A stretch of DNA of 23,611 nt from a virus, in IMG/VR virus record IMGVR_UViG_3300024259_000155, positions 1-23,611 of that record; one strand, written 5' to 3'. The translations under genes and the position numbers were made by a program. Shown here in pieces: positions 4,446 to 19,123 of the stretch (position 1 is its first letter; every line of letters starts with the position of its first letter). The notes under the pieces are model-generated. The model saw nothing but the letters and a program-made list of their open reading frames with translations, was not told where the DNA came from and ran no database searches.

Positions 4446-6035
4446 TCAGATGTTGTAGCCGTTGACGACGTTCGCGACCGACGCGGCGTCGGGCGTGTGC
4501 AGGGCGAGCCGCTGGGTGGCGACGAGGTTGACGATGCCCGACTTGATGTCGGTGTCGAGCTCGACGCGGGTGGACCGGCGGGAGTACCAGTTGAACCGGT
4601 TACGGAGGAACCCGCAGACGACGCCCTTGGTGGTGGTCGTCCCGTCGTAGAGGCCCGACGCGTTGAACTCGCTCGGCAACATCGGCGTGGTCGCGATGGC
4701 CCATGGGCCGACGACTGCGGGGAAGTTGCCGAGAATGGCGGCCTTCGGTCCGTACACGTCGACCGTCTTGGTTTCCGCGAGGCCCATGATCTTGCCGAGG
4801 TACACCGCGTAGCCGACCGCGAGCACCATGTCGGCGTTCGCAGGACCGAGCCCCTTCGGGCCAGCGACCAGCTCGGCGAGCTGGAGCAGGGTGGCGTACG
4901 TGAAGGTGGACATGTCCAACTCCGCGGCCGTGGTCAGGTCGTGAGCGCGGGCGCGCAGACCCAGCCAAGCCCGGCGAATGTCGCCAGAGCCGCCGAAGGT
5001 GGAGCCGGTCTCCCAGAGGCCGTCGACGTTCCAAGAGCCGATGCCGGTGTCTTGGTGCGTGGCGGCGGTGTCCGCGTGGAACAGCGCCTCTTCACGTCCG
5101 AGCATGTGGCCGCGGACGATGAGTTCACGCATCTCGGGGAGCGCCTGCACGATGCTGTCGTCGATTGCGTCGCGGTCCATCGGGATGTTGATCGCGAATC
5201 CCTTCGCGTCGATCGTGTTGCTGCCGGTCCCGGGAGTCGACCGGGTGAACTGCGACGGGTCGTCAGTCGTGATGTCGCCGTACAGGTAGGGGCGCGGGTT
5301 CGTCGACAGGAACGGCTTGATGAGGTTCTTGCCCTCCATCGGCCGTGTCGCGAGGGTGTCGCCGACCAGCCCGAAGTCAGACAGGGCGAGCGCCTTGTCA
5401 AGCTCGGCGAGCGTGATGTCGGGAATGAACTCGGCGCCGACACCGGCGGAGTCGGTGAAGACGCGCTCGACCCACTCGCCACCCTGCCGGCCCACTTCAC
5501 CGGGGCCGCTGCTCAGGTGGTAGCCCAGCTTGGCGAACGTCTTGGGGGCGTACTTGGCGAGGGTGTGGGGGTTGCCCAGCTCCTCGTGCTTGCCCTTGCG
5601 CCGGACCGCGGCGCAGATGACCGCAGCCTCGAAGAGGTCCTTGGCGTCTTTGTGCCAGTCGCCGTAGGTCTTCGCGGAGGTCAGGAGGCCCTCGACCTGC
5701 CCGACATCCTGCCCGGCAAACTTGACCTTGCCACCGAAGAGGCGGACGCGCTCGGAACCCTGGGTGGCGTCGCGGCTCACGAACTGGCGAAGCTCGCCTT
5801 CGGGGCCGTCGCGGCGGGCGCTTGCGTCACGGACGGATGCGGCGGCCTTCAGCTCGGCCAGCTCGCGGTCCATCGTGATGAAGTCGGCCTCAACCTTCTT
5901 CGCGCGCTCGTCGAGTTCCGACTGAGTGCGCTTGCCTTCTTTGAGGTCGGCGTGAAGGGTCTGGAACCCCTCAACGATCCGGTTTCGGGCATCGGCGTCG
6001 TTCTGCACGCCGTCAAGAGAGAAATCGCCAGCCAT
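4446..6035 (-). CDS. Major capsid protein, HK97 fold
   Basis: I start this at the ATG at 6035, which has a CCGGAG ribosome site about seven bases upstream, giving 529 aa. An upstream TTG at 6107 would add 24 residues but lies inside tandem repeats and is not favoured. Residues 15-68 form a charged helical, coiled-coil-like segment (ADFITMDRELAELKAAAS) resembling the HK97 delta domain, a built-in scaffold removed by the prohead protease. The rest has HK97-type features: a long central region with DSAGVGAEFIPD and a C-terminus with RFNWYSRRSTRVELDTD before the final strands. The protein would form the icosahedral shell. It lies between the protease and small head genes, as in HK97. Confidence 0.9.
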   Translation of the reverse strand: MAGDFSLDGVQNDADARNRIVEGFQTLHADLKEGKRTQSELDERAKKVEADFITMDRELAELKAAASVRDASARRDGPEGELRQFVSRDATQGSERVRLFGGKVKFAGQDVGQVEGLLTSAKTYGDWHKDAKDLFEAAVICAAVRRKGKHEELGNPHTLAKYAPKTFAKLGYHLSSGPGEVGRQGGEWVERVFTDSAGVGAEFIPDITLAELDKALALSDFGLVGDTLATRPMEGKNLIKPFLSTNPRPYLYGDITTDDPSQFTRSTPGTGSNTIDAKGFAINIPMDRDAIDDSIVQALPEMRELIVRGHMLGREEALFHADTAATHQDTGIGSWNVDGLWETGSTFGGSGDIRRAWLGLRARAHDLTTAAELDMSTFTYATLLQLAELVAGPKGLGPANADMVLAVGYAVYLGKIMGLAETKTVDVYGPKAAILGNFPAVVGPWAIATTPMLPSEFNASGLYDGTTTTKGVVCGFLRNRFNWYSRRSTRVELDTDIKSGIVNLVATQRLALHTPDAASVANVVNGYNI

Positions 6036-6059
6036 CAGGGACTCCGGGTTCGTGCGGCC

Positions 6060-6088
6060 ACCGTACCGTGGCTCGTGTGGTGTGTCAA
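6060..6088 (-). promoter_or_regulatory. Candidate promoter for the capsid gene
   Basis: On the minus strand TTGACA (6083-6088) is followed after exactly 17 bases by TACGGT (6060-6065), a perfect -35 box and a partial -10 box. The putative start would fall a short way upstream of the capsid ribosome site and ATG at 6035. The TTGACA box is the last part of the first 19-bp tandem repeat. Spacing and -35 box are seen directly; promoter activity is inferred. Confidence 0.45.
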
Positions 6089-6139
6089 TATGGAACAGGT
6101 GCGTCAATATGGAACAGGTGTATCATTTTGGAACAGGTG
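6083..6139 (-). repeat. Three 19-bp tandem repeats upstream of the capsid gene
   Basis: Read on the minus strand, three head-to-tail 19-bp units occur at 6121-6139, 6102-6120 and 6083-6101. All share CACCTGTTCCA; the two nearer the capsid gene are CACCTGTTCCATATTGACG and the same with a final A, while the outer unit is diverged (AAAATGATA). The outer unit carries the protease stop codon (6123-6125). The array sits between the protease and capsid genes. Head-to-tail sites about two helical turns apart suggest a protein-binding array, such as an activator or repressor site. Confidence 0.9.
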
Positions 6140-6965
6140 CGAGGAACGCGAACGCCGACCGCTTCGGGGCGCCCTCCACCTCGGTCGTCGTGTGAAGCCA
6201 GTCCAGCACGCCGGGGATCACGGGGGCGGCCTGTCGCTCCTGCCCTCCGTCCTGAACCAAGGCGCCCGCGTTCATCGGAACCGAGACCGGCGAGCATTCA
6301 AGCAGCAGGTTGTCGCGGAAGACCACACCCCGCTGGCTGAACCGCTGGTCGCCCTCGTCGAAGCTGGAGCGGTGGAGCACCTGAGCCGGAAGGAAACCAA
6401 CCGACACGGTGCGCACGACGTTCAGGGCCAGTTGCTCGGCCACGGTCATCGACAGCGGATAGGACGCGATGGGCACGGGTTCGAGGTCGCCCATCAACGC
6501 ACCGTCACGCACGCCGACGTTGTGCCAGATGCCCACGGGCGGATCGCTGGAGCGGTGGCCCCATGGCGCGACGGGGTTCTGCCGGAACTCATCGAGGCGC
6601 CACACCTGTTCCACGATGTCGCGGGCGCGGTCGCTGTCGGCGGTGCTCATGATGAACCGGAACCGCTCCTGCGCGCCCTCTTCGATCTCGTCCTCGTCGT
6701 CCTCGTGGGCTCGGTGGATGGTGAAGCCGTACGAGAACGCGCCGACCGATTGGCGGGTGACCGAGGCCAGCGCCCCGATCTCTTCGATGTCGGCGCTCGT
6801 GATGTCCCGCTCGTGCGAGATGATGGCCTCGATATCGCGGGGCCGGTTGCCGATGGCGCTCGACAGCACATCCAGCGCCCGCTTCTGCGGGGTGCCTGCG
6901 CGCTCGGCGTCGATGAGGAGCCGGAGGATTCCCGCGGCGGGAGTGTTCGTGATTCGGGTGAGCAT
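6123..6965 (-). CDS. HK97-family prohead protease (S78 type)
   Basis: A 280-aa serine protease expected to cleave the capsid delta domain and scaffold during head maturation. I start at ATG 6965, which has a TAGGAG site a few bases upstream; a longer frame start at 7001 lies inside the preceding gene. The catalytic region is clear: His137 in NPVAPWGHRSSDPPVG and Ser188 in VVRTVSVGFLP, preceded by a strand FRFIMSTADSDRARD typical of the family. Residues 1-85 form an extra helical N-terminal region, followed by an acidic linker (HEDDEDEIEEGAQ), making the protein longer than compact homologues. The final codons run into the 19-bp repeat array. Confidence 0.87.
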   Translation of the reverse strand: MLTRITNTPAAGILRLLIDAERAGTPQKRALDVLSSAIGNRPRDIEAIISHERDITSADIEEIGALASVTRQSVGAFSYGFTIHRAHEDDEDEIEEGAQERFRFIMSTADSDRARDIVEQVWRLDEFRQNPVAPWGHRSSDPPVGIWHNVGVRDGALMGDLEPVPIASYPLSMTVAEQLALNVVRTVSVGFLPAQVLHRSSFDEGDQRFSQRGVVFRDNLLLECSPVSVPMNAGALVQDGGQERQAAPVIPGVLDWLHTTTEVEGAPKRSAFAFLAPVPK

Positions 6966-6973
6966 GTCGGCTC

Positions 6974-8185
6974 CTACTTCAAGACTGGAATGGTGGTGCA
7001 TCGGCAGTTGACGCTTTCAGATGCGGCGGCGAACTCACCGGGGCCGGGTGCAGTCTGCCCCGCGTTGTCCCCTGACGTCAGCGTGAACTCTTCGCCGGGG
7101 TTGACTTGCTGCCCGTCGAGGTCATCAGGGCCGCCGCCGGACCAATGGGTGGAGCGTGCGGCCCCATCCCGGGCAGACAGCCAGCCGACCTTGAACGACA
7201 CGCCCGCGTCAGCCGCAGCCGAGTAGGCGAGGTTCGAGCCCTTCGTCATCAGCTTGGTCGTCTCGGTCCGCGCAATCCGCAGCGCCCGGATCGGTGAGAA
7301 TGCGGGGTCACGGATGAGCCGCGCCTGAATGTCGTTGACTGACTCGCCTTGGAGTAGTCCCGACTGGACCGTCTTCGCGATCTGGCTCTTAGTGTACTGG
7401 TCGACGCCCGTGACCATGCGGGCAAGCTCTGCCTCTGCGGGGTCAAGCGTCGGGTTCCACACGATGTCATCGAGCCCGGCGCGGACCTGCTCATTCCACC
7501 CGAGGCGGAGGATGGCACGGACCCGCTGAACCCCGATGTGCTCGGCGGCGAGCTCGGCTTCCTTTGCGGTGTCGAGAACCACAGACATCTCGGAGGCGTT
7601 GAGCACCTGACGCACGACGAGACCCGAGACGGCCGCCTCTTTCGGCAGCACCTCGGCCAATCGTTCGACGGTCCGCTTGACACGGCCCTTCAGGTAGCCG
7701 ACCCAGCGTTGGCGGAGTCGGTTCTCTGCCGGTTTGTGGGCCCGCGTGATGAAGTCGACCCATGCCCGCGTGCGGCCCTCTGGCGTCGTCATGTCGGGGC
7801 GGTCGCTGGGGGCCTCGCGGACAAGGAACGAGAACGGCGAGCGGGTCACGACGACCGGCTTGGCTGCCTCGATTGCTCGGAGCGTGCGGCGGGCCCATGC
7901 TCGACCAGTCGCGCCGCCGTAGAGCAGCCACGCGCGGTCGGTCTTGTCGGCGCCCTCGAAGTAGCGGACCATGTGCCGGACGGTGTCGACGGTGACAACC
8001 TCGCCCGAGGTCAGGGCGTGGGCAACCTGACGCGACCGGAGCGACGCCGCGGTGTCCTCGTCCATGCCGGACGCCACAACAGCAGCAAGCGCCGACGGTG
8101 GCGACATGAAGTCGGGCACGGTCTCCGGCTCGGTCGGCATGTCTCGCGAGCAGCAGATCGGGGCAATGGCGTGGGCGGCACTCAC
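6974..8185 (-). CDS. MuF-like minor head protein
   Basis: A 403-aa protein starting with GTG in a GTGA overlap with the portal stop. Residues 295-403 are a typical phage Mu F-like head morphogenesis domain: PIRALRIARTETTKLM, a conserved Trp (VGWLSARDG), His347 in RSTHWSG, and the C-terminal SVNCRC motif. These proteins are packaged in small numbers and help early head assembly or DNA entry. Residues 31-100 carry a separate domain with VAHALTSGEVVTVDTVRHM and WLLYGGATGRAWA, a pattern I know from other phage head proteins. The MuF plus portal neighbourhood is standard. Start choice is supported by the overlap. Confidence 0.85.
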   Translation of the reverse strand: MSAAHAIAPICCSRDMPTEPETVPDFMSPPSALAAVVASGMDEDTAASLRSRQVAHALTSGEVVTVDTVRHMVRYFEGADKTDRAWLLYGGATGRAWARRTLRAIEAAKPVVVTRSPFSFLVREAPSDRPDMTTPEGRTRAWVDFITRAHKPAENRLRQRWVGYLKGRVKRTVERLAEVLPKEAAVSGLVVRQVLNASEMSVVLDTAKEAELAAEHIGVQRVRAILRLGWNEQVRAGLDDIVWNPTLDPAEAELARMVTGVDQYTKSQIAKTVQSGLLQGESVNDIQARLIRDPAFSPIRALRIARTETTKLMTKGSNLAYSAAADAGVSFKVGWLSARDGAARSTHWSGGGPDDLDGQQVNPGEEFTLTSGDNAGQTAPGPGEFAAASESVNCRCTTIPVLK

Positions 8186-9629: not shown

Positions 9630-9672
9630 TGTCGTGTGTCAAAATGGAACACCCTGCTCCAGAATGTACCAC
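9630..9672 (-). promoter_or_regulatory. Conserved 22-bp element upstream of portal gene
   Basis: Positions 9630-9651 match 6076-6097 upstream of the capsid gene in 20 of 22 bases; the minus-strand core here is TGTTCCATTTTGACACAC. A degenerate second copy lies 20 bp further upstream (9659-9672), matching in 10 of 14 bases. As before capsid, the core contains TTGACA, but no convincing -10 box is visible at 16-18 bp. Function as a promoter or protein-binding site is inferred from conservation in front of two key head genes. Confidence 0.7.
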
Positions 9673-9681
9673 GTCAATCGG

Positions 9682-13324: not shown

Positions 13325-13836
13325 GTTGCCTCCATTGAGGCCCACCGCATCCAGTGCGGCCTGAGTCTGCTGTTGATGTCATCGAGCTCGGTCGTCAGGC
13401 GCTCGATCTCGGCCTCAAGTTCTGCGATCCGCCTGTCCTTGACGCTGATGATGTACTCGGCATCACGGGCGACCTCTGCGGCTGATTCCTTGTGCTGGGA
13501 TTGGAACGTGCCGATGGTGGGGCCGCCAGCAATGAACCGCTGCGGGTAGTTGTCCGCCCTCGCGCTGCGGAGCATGTCCGTCGTCGCGTCGCCCAGAACG
13601 GTCAGGCGCTCGATCTCGGCGGCCTGGGTGGCGATGAGGTTGGCCATTGCGGGGGCGACGAGCAGTAGTCCTGCGAGCCGGTCGGGGCAGTCGTCTACCA
13701 CCGTGTACTTGCCGTGTACTCCACTGTACTCCAGCCGCGTATCCTCGTCGTTCTCCGCCGCACATGCTCGGAGTACGCCGCCAAATACGGCAGCGTGCAT
13801 AGCCACCTCGGCCGGTGTGATTGGGGGCGTGGTCAT
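13321..13836 (-). CDS. Hypothetical coiled-coil protein
   Basis: A 171-aa protein whose ATG overlaps the antitoxin-like gene stop (ATGA). An N-terminal half of mixed composition (PAEVAMHAAVFGGVLRAC) is followed by a long heptad-like region, DRRIAELEAEIERLTTELDD, in the last 40 residues. A shorter coiled-coil segment, TQAAEIERLTVLGDA, is in the middle. The RIAELEAEIERLTTEL type of repeat is common in short phage proteins of unknown function. It does not resemble RelE, Doc or other toxins that partner Phd/YefM. Confidence 0.68.
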   Translation of the reverse strand: MTTPPITPAEVAMHAAVFGGVLRACAAENDEDTRLEYSGVHGKYTVVDDCPDRLAGLLLVAPAMANLIATQAAEIERLTVLGDATTDMLRSARADNYPQRFIAGGPTIGTFQSQHKESAAEVARDAEYIISVKDRRIAELEAEIERLTTELDDINSRLRPHWMRWASMEAT

Positions 13837-14114
13837 GGCTTCACCTCCATCAGCTTCGATGCCACGTTGACCAGCCCGGCGAGCGCCTCTGGCAACGTCA
13901 CCCGTTCACCATCGACGTACGCCGCATCCCCAAGCAGTTCGTAGCAGCGGTCGACGTCGTCCAACCGCTCCAAATCCTCAAGCGGCACCACAGCCACCAA
14001 CGGCCGGCGGTGCGAGGTCACGACGTAGCGCGTGCGATTGGTGGCGACGTCCATGAACGCATCGCCACCGGAGCGGCGGAGGTTGGCCATGGTGATGGTT
14101 TTGGGGGTGGTCAT
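13833..14114 (-). CDS. Phd/YefM-like antitoxin domain protein
   Basis: The ATG at 14114 overlaps the preceding stop as ATGA, giving 93 aa; longer in-frame starts run into the upstream gene. The N-terminal half, with ITMANLRRSGGDAFMDVA and RYVVTSHRRPLVAVVPLEDLE, fits the Phd/YefM fold: a DNA-binding beta-helix segment with '[IV]T..GRP.AV[LV]' followed by 'P.E..E.L'. The C-terminal half is acidic and leucine-rich, as in toxin-neutralising tails. Known family members repress their own operon and neutralise a toxin. No toxin-like gene is adjacent. It may be a lone antitoxin or DNA-binding regulator. Confidence 0.72.
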   Translation of the reverse strand: MTTPKTITMANLRRSGGDAFMDVATNRTRYVVTSHRRPLVAVVPLEDLERLDDVDRCYELLGDAAYVDGERVTLPEALAGLVNVASKLMEVKP

Positions 14115-14449
14115 GGGGACACCTCGGGTGCTTTTGCGTTCTCGTCGACAAGCCGCAGGATCTCGCGCAACACCGCGAACGGGATCGGGACTGTCACAGG
14201 CATGTCGTAGGACTCGTAGCCGTCGCTGGACCGTGAGCAGCCGAGGACGTCCAGTGTGCCGTCTTCCGTGTCGATGGTGAGTTCGTAGTCGGTGTCCGTG
14301 TGCGAGATGTCGACGTCGAGGTTTCCGGGCTTGCTCCATGACCAGACCTTCATCGTCCACAACTGGTGAGTCCATACGCGGTTGCCGTGCTCGTCGGTGA
14401 CCCATGTGTGGTCGCCCCCTGCCGCCGGGGTCTCGTCGGTGGGGGTCAT
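14111..14449 (-). CDS. Hypothetical protein
   Basis: A 112-aa protein with ATGA overlaps at both ends. It is acidic and beta-rich: WTHQLWTMKVWSWSKPG, then DVDISHTDTDYELTIDTEDG, and a C-terminal helix VLREILRLVDENA. I do not recognise the family. Codon use is GC-rich at third positions like its neighbours, and the tight overlaps support it being real. Confidence 0.6.
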   Translation of the reverse strand: MTPTDETPAAGGDHTWVTDEHGNRVWTHQLWTMKVWSWSKPGNLDVDISHTDTDYELTIDTEDGTLDVLGCSRSSDGYESYDMPVTVPIPFAVLREILRLVDENAKAPEVSP

Positions 14450-14691
14450 TGGGGCACGTCCGCGGTCCTGACTACTGTGGCGAGGATGCGAAACACCCGC
14501 GTGTCATCGGGGAACGCGACCATCCCGCCGTCCATGATGCGGGTTGACCACGCATCGCCAGCGTCATCGGTAGTGTCGCCGACAATCCACTCGACGGAGT
14601 ATTGCCCGCTGCTGAACGCCCAGAACGCCCCGACCGGCAACGTCCCATACTCGACCGTCTGCGGCCCCTCGCTCGTCTTTGCTCCACTCAT
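14446..14691 (-). CDS. Small hypothetical protein
   Basis: I start at ATG 14691, which has a strong GGAGGGAGAGGGG purine tract just upstream, giving 81 aa. The protein has GTLPVGAFWAFSSGQYSVEW and VFRILATVVRT strands and looks like a small beta domain. It is the first gene after the 419-bp non-coding interval, so it may be the first gene of the downstream transcript. No family is recognised. Confidence 0.6.
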   Translation of the reverse strand: MSGAKTSEGPQTVEYGTLPVGAFWAFSSGQYSVEWIVGDTTDDAGDAWSTRIMDGGMVAFPDDTRVFRILATVVRTADVPQ

Positions 14692-14832
14692 CCCCTCTCC
14701 CTCCGTCAATCGTTGCCCTCTTCGCCGCCGGTCCATCCAGCCCCATCAAGGTAATGTGCGTTGTGCGCGCTGTCAACGCTGGGGGTGCTTGTTTGGGGGG
14801 TGTTGCTTCTACTAAACCTTTCGTGGACCACC

Positions 14833-18610: not shown

Positions 18611-18700
18611 CACCGGGGCATGACTCCCGATGGGCCCCGTAGGTGGGGCAAGCCTGGAACATCAGAGTTGATGCACCGGGAAGCCCGGCACGAATCAACC

Positions 18701-19123
18701 CTATTCCGACGCCGCCGCCTCGTCAACCTTCGGCGCAAGCATGTGGTCAACCCCCGCTTTGACGGTCTCGACGCCGTAGTGCTGGGAGAACCGGCACACC
18801 GCGCCATCGTAGGACCAGTCCCAGGGGAAAGGCCCCTCGCCAAACTGGCCGCGCATCATCGTTCCGGTGCCGCCGGACTCGATCGACAGGAGTTTGTAGA
18901 ACTGGCGGCAGAGCGAGAGGTTGCCGAGCCTCATTTCGTAGTCCACAACAAGCCCGCGGTAGGTCCTGATGTCTGCCACCACTTCGACAGACTCGGTCGC
19001 GGGGCACACTTGACGGGTCACCCCATCGACCGGCTCGCTCACCCGGCAGTTATCCGCGAGCGGAACTGGCACGGCCTGCGACAGACCGAAAATCAACCCA
19101 ACGACTGGCACACTCTTAGGCAT
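18701..19123 (-). CDS. Hypothetical exported protein with four cysteines
   Basis: ATG 19123 follows a strong AAAGGAGGGCGTG site (a GTG one codon earlier is less likely); 140 aa. The first 24 residues, MPKSVPVVGLIFGLSQAVPV then PLA-D, look like a signal peptide with Lys3 and a cleavage-like PLA. The mature part has four Cys (DNC, QVC, SLC, AVC), consistent with two disulfides, and a Trp/Phe-rich patch GEGPFPWDWSYDG. No family is recognised. Phage-encoded exported proteins can act in superinfection exclusion, envelope change or lysis, but nothing here selects one. Confidence 0.68.
   Translation of the reverse strand: MPKSVPVVGLIFGLSQAVPVPLADNCRVSEPVDGVTRQVCPATESVEVVADIRTYRGLVVDYEMRLGNLSLCRQFYKLLSIESGGTGTMMRGQFGEGPFPWDWSYDGAVCRFSQHYGVETVKAGVDHMLAPKVDEAAASE

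Follow-up and report, generated by a model that had tools for sequence, protein, structure and literature searches.

The question raised by this locus is whether the major capsid gene of an uncultivated phage, standing inside an operon of structural genes, is served by a promoter of its own, and whether the tandem repeats in front of it are the sites of a regulator. The DNA analysed, referred to here as the window, is a stretch of 23,611 nucleotides that makes up an incomplete viral fragment in IMG/VR (IMGVR_UViG_3300024259_000155). The repeats lie between two genes:

4446-6035, minus strand: major capsid protein gene (529 aa), with a MAGDF start that is kept in all relatives
6123-7001, minus strand: head maturation protease-like gene (phrog_617, 5.6e-11; phrog_80, 2e-4)

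The capsid gene comes after the portal, MuF-like, and protease-like genes. The window capsid protein alone matched the major head protein family phrog_10 weakly (E 0.004), and all four aligned capsid proteins matched that family with a best E of 1.9e-9. Structure prediction of the capsid protein yielded no usable model (mean pLDDT 31). A longer capsid ORF from the TTG at 6107 was rejected, because the MAGDF start is conserved and the upstream frame is broken in one of the relatives (L006). Searching IMG/VR with the capsid protein identified four relative records (L005/L027, L006, L007, and L008), while neither the 50,697 named phages nor the bacterial and archaeal genome collection yielded a capsid relative. 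L005/L027 shares 99.6% DNA identity with the window over 14 kb and is effectively the same phage (hereafter the twin). The capsid proteins of L006, L007, and L008 are 90%, 73%, and 69% identical to that of the window, respectively, and L006 is 82% identical to it in DNA.

The first part of the question concerns the following elements:

6083-6088, minus strand: -35 box TTGACA, kept as TTGAC[A/G] in L006, L007, and L008
6060-6065, minus strand: -10 box TACGGT, of the form TANNNT (TAGCAT, TAGCCT, and TAACGT in the relatives)
near 6053-6054, minus strand: predicted transcription start, which would give a leader of ~19 nt to the capsid ATG
6042-6045, minus strand: Shine-Dalgarno-like GGAG, 6 nt before the capsid ATG (6035), with GGAG likewise in L006-L008

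An earlier note on this DNA had pointed out a TTGACA at the end of the innermost repeat with TACGGT 17 bp beyond, and both hexamers are indeed present at exactly that spacing. Its proposal of an internal capsid promoter was strengthened by the comparison with relatives, as the arrangement TTGAC[A/G]-17 bp-TANNNT recurs at the homologous position before the capsid ATG in every relative found and thus in 4/4 distinct lineages (window, TTGACA-17-TACGGT; L006, TTGACG-17-TAGCAT; L007, TTGACG-17-TAGCCT; L008, TTGACA-17-TAACGT). The chance expectation for this pattern is 0.03-0.07 sites per record. In all four lineages, CGG also directly precedes the TA of the -10 box. The boxes were kept while the remaining spacer sequence and the leader changed, which indicates that the boxes are under selection. 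With hexamers 16-18 bp apart, a position upstream of a gene start, and preservation in relatives, the site has the sequence properties of a sigma70/sigmaA-type promoter, and this conservation makes it highly probable that the capsid gene has a dedicated promoter of the sigma70 type.

The window has two other promoter-like sites of this type, each located at a gene boundary on the coding strand and neither carrying a repeat unit. One, TTGACA-17-TACCTT at 14748-14776 (minus strand), closely precedes the ORF at 14446-14736, and the other, TTGACG-17-TAGGGT at 18698-18726 (minus strand), lies at the boundary of two small genes, where its -10 box overlaps a TAG stop. In the L008 phage, TTGACC-17-TACCAT (L021 346-374) is found 6 bases before the terminase ATG, such that a transcript from this site would be leaderless or nearly so. 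Leaderless transcripts are common in Actinobacteria.

The -35 box of the capsid promoter is also the end of a tandem array:

6121-6139, minus strand: repeat unit 1 (outer), CACCTGTTCCAAAATGATA, overlapping the protease stop TGA
6102-6120, minus strand: repeat unit 2, CACCTGTTCCATATTGACG, the equivalent of which carries the -35 box in L006
6083-6101, minus strand: repeat unit 3 (inner), CACCTGTTCCATATTGACA, whose last 6 bases are the -35 box

The units run head-to-tail on the minus strand from 6139 to 6083 in the gap between the protease and capsid genes, just as the earlier note had described, and arrays of this kind were absent from shuffled windows. Tandem Repeats Finder reported a period of 19 and 3.3 copies with a score of 91, the top score in the window, and the best three-copy tandem had a z-score of 8.3 compared to ≤5.7 in 60 shuffled windows. 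The outer copy does carry the protease stop, which falls at 6123-6125 (LAPVPK-TGA). Units 2 and 3 are identical at 18/19 positions, units 1 and 3 at 16/19, and units 1 and 2 at 15/19. The suggestion that each repeat spans two helical turns, placing bound proteins on a single DNA face, was mistaken: 19 bp correspond to 1.81 turns of B-DNA, so successive units are rotated by ~65 degrees and do not share one face, although side-by-side binding is still possible with this period. The units have the common core TGTTCCAnnnTGAYRCA and a dyad skeleton, TGTnnCAnnnTGnnACA, that fits unit 1, unit 3, and a further copy at the portal gene exactly and unit 2 with one break. Its 3 exact occurrences compare with none expected for a pattern that was picked after the fact. 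This skeleton is of the kind that would be expected of a dimer site, while the overall symmetry of the units is weak (4-6 of 9 pairs match). We rejected a role for the region as an RNA structure or terminator, as RNA folds of the capsid and portal regions were no better than those of shuffled sequences (z-scores of 1.4, -0.2, and -0.2). An extra weight-matrix match at 6603 (plus strand) was likewise set aside, being located inside the protease coding sequence and within chance.

The portal copy had been missed by the earlier note, as it is located outside of the range considered there:

9633-9651, minus strand: fourth copy, TGTTCCATTTTGACACACG, over the probable portal gene start, in the coding direction
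9651-9673, plus strand: weak inverted copy, CCTGCTCCAGAATGTACCACG, adjoining the fourth copy

The fourth copy has a single mismatch to the 18-base core, where none is expected in shuffles. It stands out less by a leave-one-out weight matrix, with which its score was reached in 7/400 shuffled windows. It is documented in the window and its 99.6% identical twin. The inverted copy is notable for its position only, as the best matches in shuffled windows averaged a higher weight-matrix score than its own (8.3-10.6). No -10 box is found 16-18 bp downstream of the fourth copy. Based upon a comparison with the homologous portal N-terminus in L008, the TTG of the TTGACA in the fourth copy (9637-9642, minus strand), rather than a downstream ATG, may be the portal start codon. 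More distant portal relatives were found in L014-L018 (36% identity). Because a copy is found at the portal gene, whereas both of the remaining promoter-like sites lack one, the unit seems to accompany structural genes rather than promoters as such.

Among the capsid relatives, the fate of the units differs from that of the promoter. Three units are found in the window and twin and two in L006, while L007 and L008 have none, and the repeat units thus appear to be younger than the promoter. The absence from relatives that the earlier note had counted against its proposal was borne out for the repeats in L007 and L008, but neither for L006 nor for the promoter. Elsewhere in IMG/VR, a tandem pair of units was found only in the twin and L006. 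Besides the twin, the 18-base unit was matched in three viral contigs, L010-L012 (~40% GC), and these matches were set aside as a coding coincidence, as all of them fall in one long ORF and share the surrounding DNA. In L006, the -35 box sits in unit 2, whereas the -35 box of the window is the TTGACA of the extra unit, which is 18/19 like unit 2. The third unit may be a simple fresh tandem duplication of the second. Over the stretch that opens with unit 1 and closes with the -35 box of unit 2, L006 matches the window at 34/36 positions, compared to 23/45 at the protease end before this island and 7/17 in the spacer after it. The island is conspicuous chiefly by comparison with its flanks, and it is supporting rather than decisive evidence, since 9.8% of the 36-column blocks of the window-L006 alignment reach ≥34/36 identity.

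The relatives carry inverted repeats over the same promoter boxes, which can be compared with a near-palindrome in the window:

6057-6072: 16-bp near-palindrome GCCACGGTACGGTGGC over the -10 box (7/8 pairs), not significant alone (P 0.56, shuffles)
L028 7460-7503 and G004:C1 18200-18243: capsid-promoter inverted repeats of L007/L008, differing from the window units but lying at matching positions

L006 has GGTAG-cat-CTACC, L007 has GTTGGG-ttgacg-CCCAAC and GGTAGC-cttac-GCTACC, and L008 has GTTGG-tattgacac-CCAAC and GGTAAC-gtct-GTTACC. In all three, an inverted repeat covers the -10 box from the same starting position, and in L007 and L008 another covers the -35 box. Single inverted repeats are not significant (P 0.13-0.56, shuffles). 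In our judgement, they probably represent more than chance, given the shared position, the paired change from GGTAGC/GCTACC in L007 to GGTAAC/GTTACC in L008, and the uniqueness of each pattern, which is found nowhere else in the record of its relative. The sequence overlapping the promoter consists of TGTTCCA units in the window and L006 and of GTTGG-CCAAC and GGTARC-GYTACC dyads in L007 and L008. One could therefore picture a promoter whose position and boxes are fixed while the operator overlapping it is replaced between lineages, a doubtful reading at present. If true, late structural genes would have a fast-changing repressor specificity of their own, and capsid production would be under the direct control of a sort of immunity or timing switch.

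We consider it an even bet that the capsid promoter is of the host sigma type and that the units are the sites of one regulator, more likely a repressor. According to this model, the main sigma factor of the host would read the promoter, with a start near 6053, and the promoter would add capsid mRNA beyond that produced by read-through from the upstream portal-MuF-protease genes. One sequence-specific DNA-binding protein would occupy the 19-bp units; on the innermost unit, which holds the -35 box, it would block RNA polymerase, and the outer units would assist through side-by-side binding, with a further site at the portal start. The conserved island and the distant fourth copy are our grounds for inferring that the units are bound by a protein. 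That part of the original proposal is plausible, as the units are shared with L006 and appear again at the portal gene. Evidence against it is their absence from L007 and L008, where other inverted repeats are found, together with the lack of a nearby -10 box at the fourth copy. An operator that controls a promoter would be expected to overlap its -35 or -10 box, and unit 3 ends in the -35 box. A repressor is favored over an activator because the -35 box inside the site is a full consensus. As for the protein itself, no regulator, integrase, or repressor gene was recognized among the scanned proteins of this incomplete fragment (PHROGs, Pfam). A Phd/YefM-like antitoxin-type protein encoded at 13836-14405 (minus strand; E 1.9e-5, below the Pfam cut-off) is a possible DNA-binding regulator, but only a lead. 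It appears solitary, with no toxin partner visible.

The main rival is a plain constitutive capsid promoter, next to which the third unit, or all of the units, would have arisen by neutral tandem duplication of the segment that contains the protease stop and the -35 box. The 18/19 match between units 2 and 3 and the one unit by which the window exceeds L006 resemble a single recent duplication, and L007 and L008 keep the promoter without any units. Slippage does not account as readily for a unit copy 3.5 kb away at the portal start, nor for units 1 and 2, which are only 15/19 alike and yet both kept in L006 amid diverged neighbors. Overall, we regard this explanation as rather unlikely, albeit the strongest of the alternatives. 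Less probable still is a late activator in the manner of the middle and late activators of Mu or P2, which would bind the units and bring RNA polymerase to the promoter of the capsid gene, and perhaps also to the portal gene. Its sites would be suitably placed, in contact with the -35 box from the upstream side, confined to structural genes, and all in the direction of transcription, but a full-consensus -35 box with ideal 17-bp spacing rarely needs an activator, the fourth copy is without a -10 box, and units that repeat every 19 bp do not point to one side of the DNA. Finally, it is very improbable that the units are roadblocks like those of cluster A mycobacteriophages, namely asymmetric repressor sites in short gaps that halt elongation along the late operon, one of them lying over a promoter, since they occur in only two places in 23.6 kb and in tandem, with neither a repressor gene nor an integrase seen in this fragment, even though the four clear copies share one orientation to transcription at gene ends or starts and TTGACA is part of the unit, as it is of the L5 site when that is read on the opposite strand.

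If a regulated capsid promoter is indeed present, then such a dedicated element stands inside the structural operon of an uncultivated phage group for which the phage collection searched here contained no capsid relative. It would provide a short DNA target for finding the regulator and a case for following operator change at a fixed promoter. Such a promoter would not break with known phage gene regulation, and its parts can be compared with several described systems. The measured housekeeping promoter of Streptomyces lividans has a -10 box TANNNT and a -35 box nTGACn ~17 bp apart, and its ribosome site, GGAG, is located 4-9 nt ahead of the start (PMC8079986). The capsid promoter resembles it in both boxes, the spacing, and the GGAG, a match by consensus only, and it differs in the overlapping 19-bp units added in this phage. 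The promoter form would thus fit an actinobacterial host. In cluster A mycobacteriophages, repressor sites occupy promoters and short intergenic regions, mostly in a single orientation, and the L5 repressor is described as having >20 sites of 13 bp (PMC9283540, PMC6550527). As in L5, Bxb1, and TipsytheTRex, the sites described here are short, repeated, and located over a promoter and gene boundaries, with the four clear copies all on the minus (coding) strand. Unlike the 13-bp sites spread at >20 per genome in that cluster, they have a 19-bp period, number three in tandem plus one at two places in the 23.6-kb fragment, and have no known repressor. We therefore did not classify the array as stoperators, because its sites are few and tandem and a repressor gene was not found in the fragment.

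In the OR/OL regions of lambda-type phages, tandem operators over promoter boxes support cooperative binding and graded repression. The present array is similar in that one site recurs several times at intervals and covers promoter boxes, but those of lambda-type phages are at early promoters beside the repressor gene, whereas this one is at a structural gene within a late operon. Late activators such as P2 Ogr, Mu C, and the RinA/Ltr type usually have one site at a promoter with a poor -35 box. Their sites are also dyad-like and just upstream of structural gene promoters, but here the units are repeated and the -35 box is a consensus. We found no fitting report of such an array at a phage capsid gene in the open-licence literature, and we would describe it as a new example of a familiar arrangement, namely operator-like repeats at the promoter of a phage.
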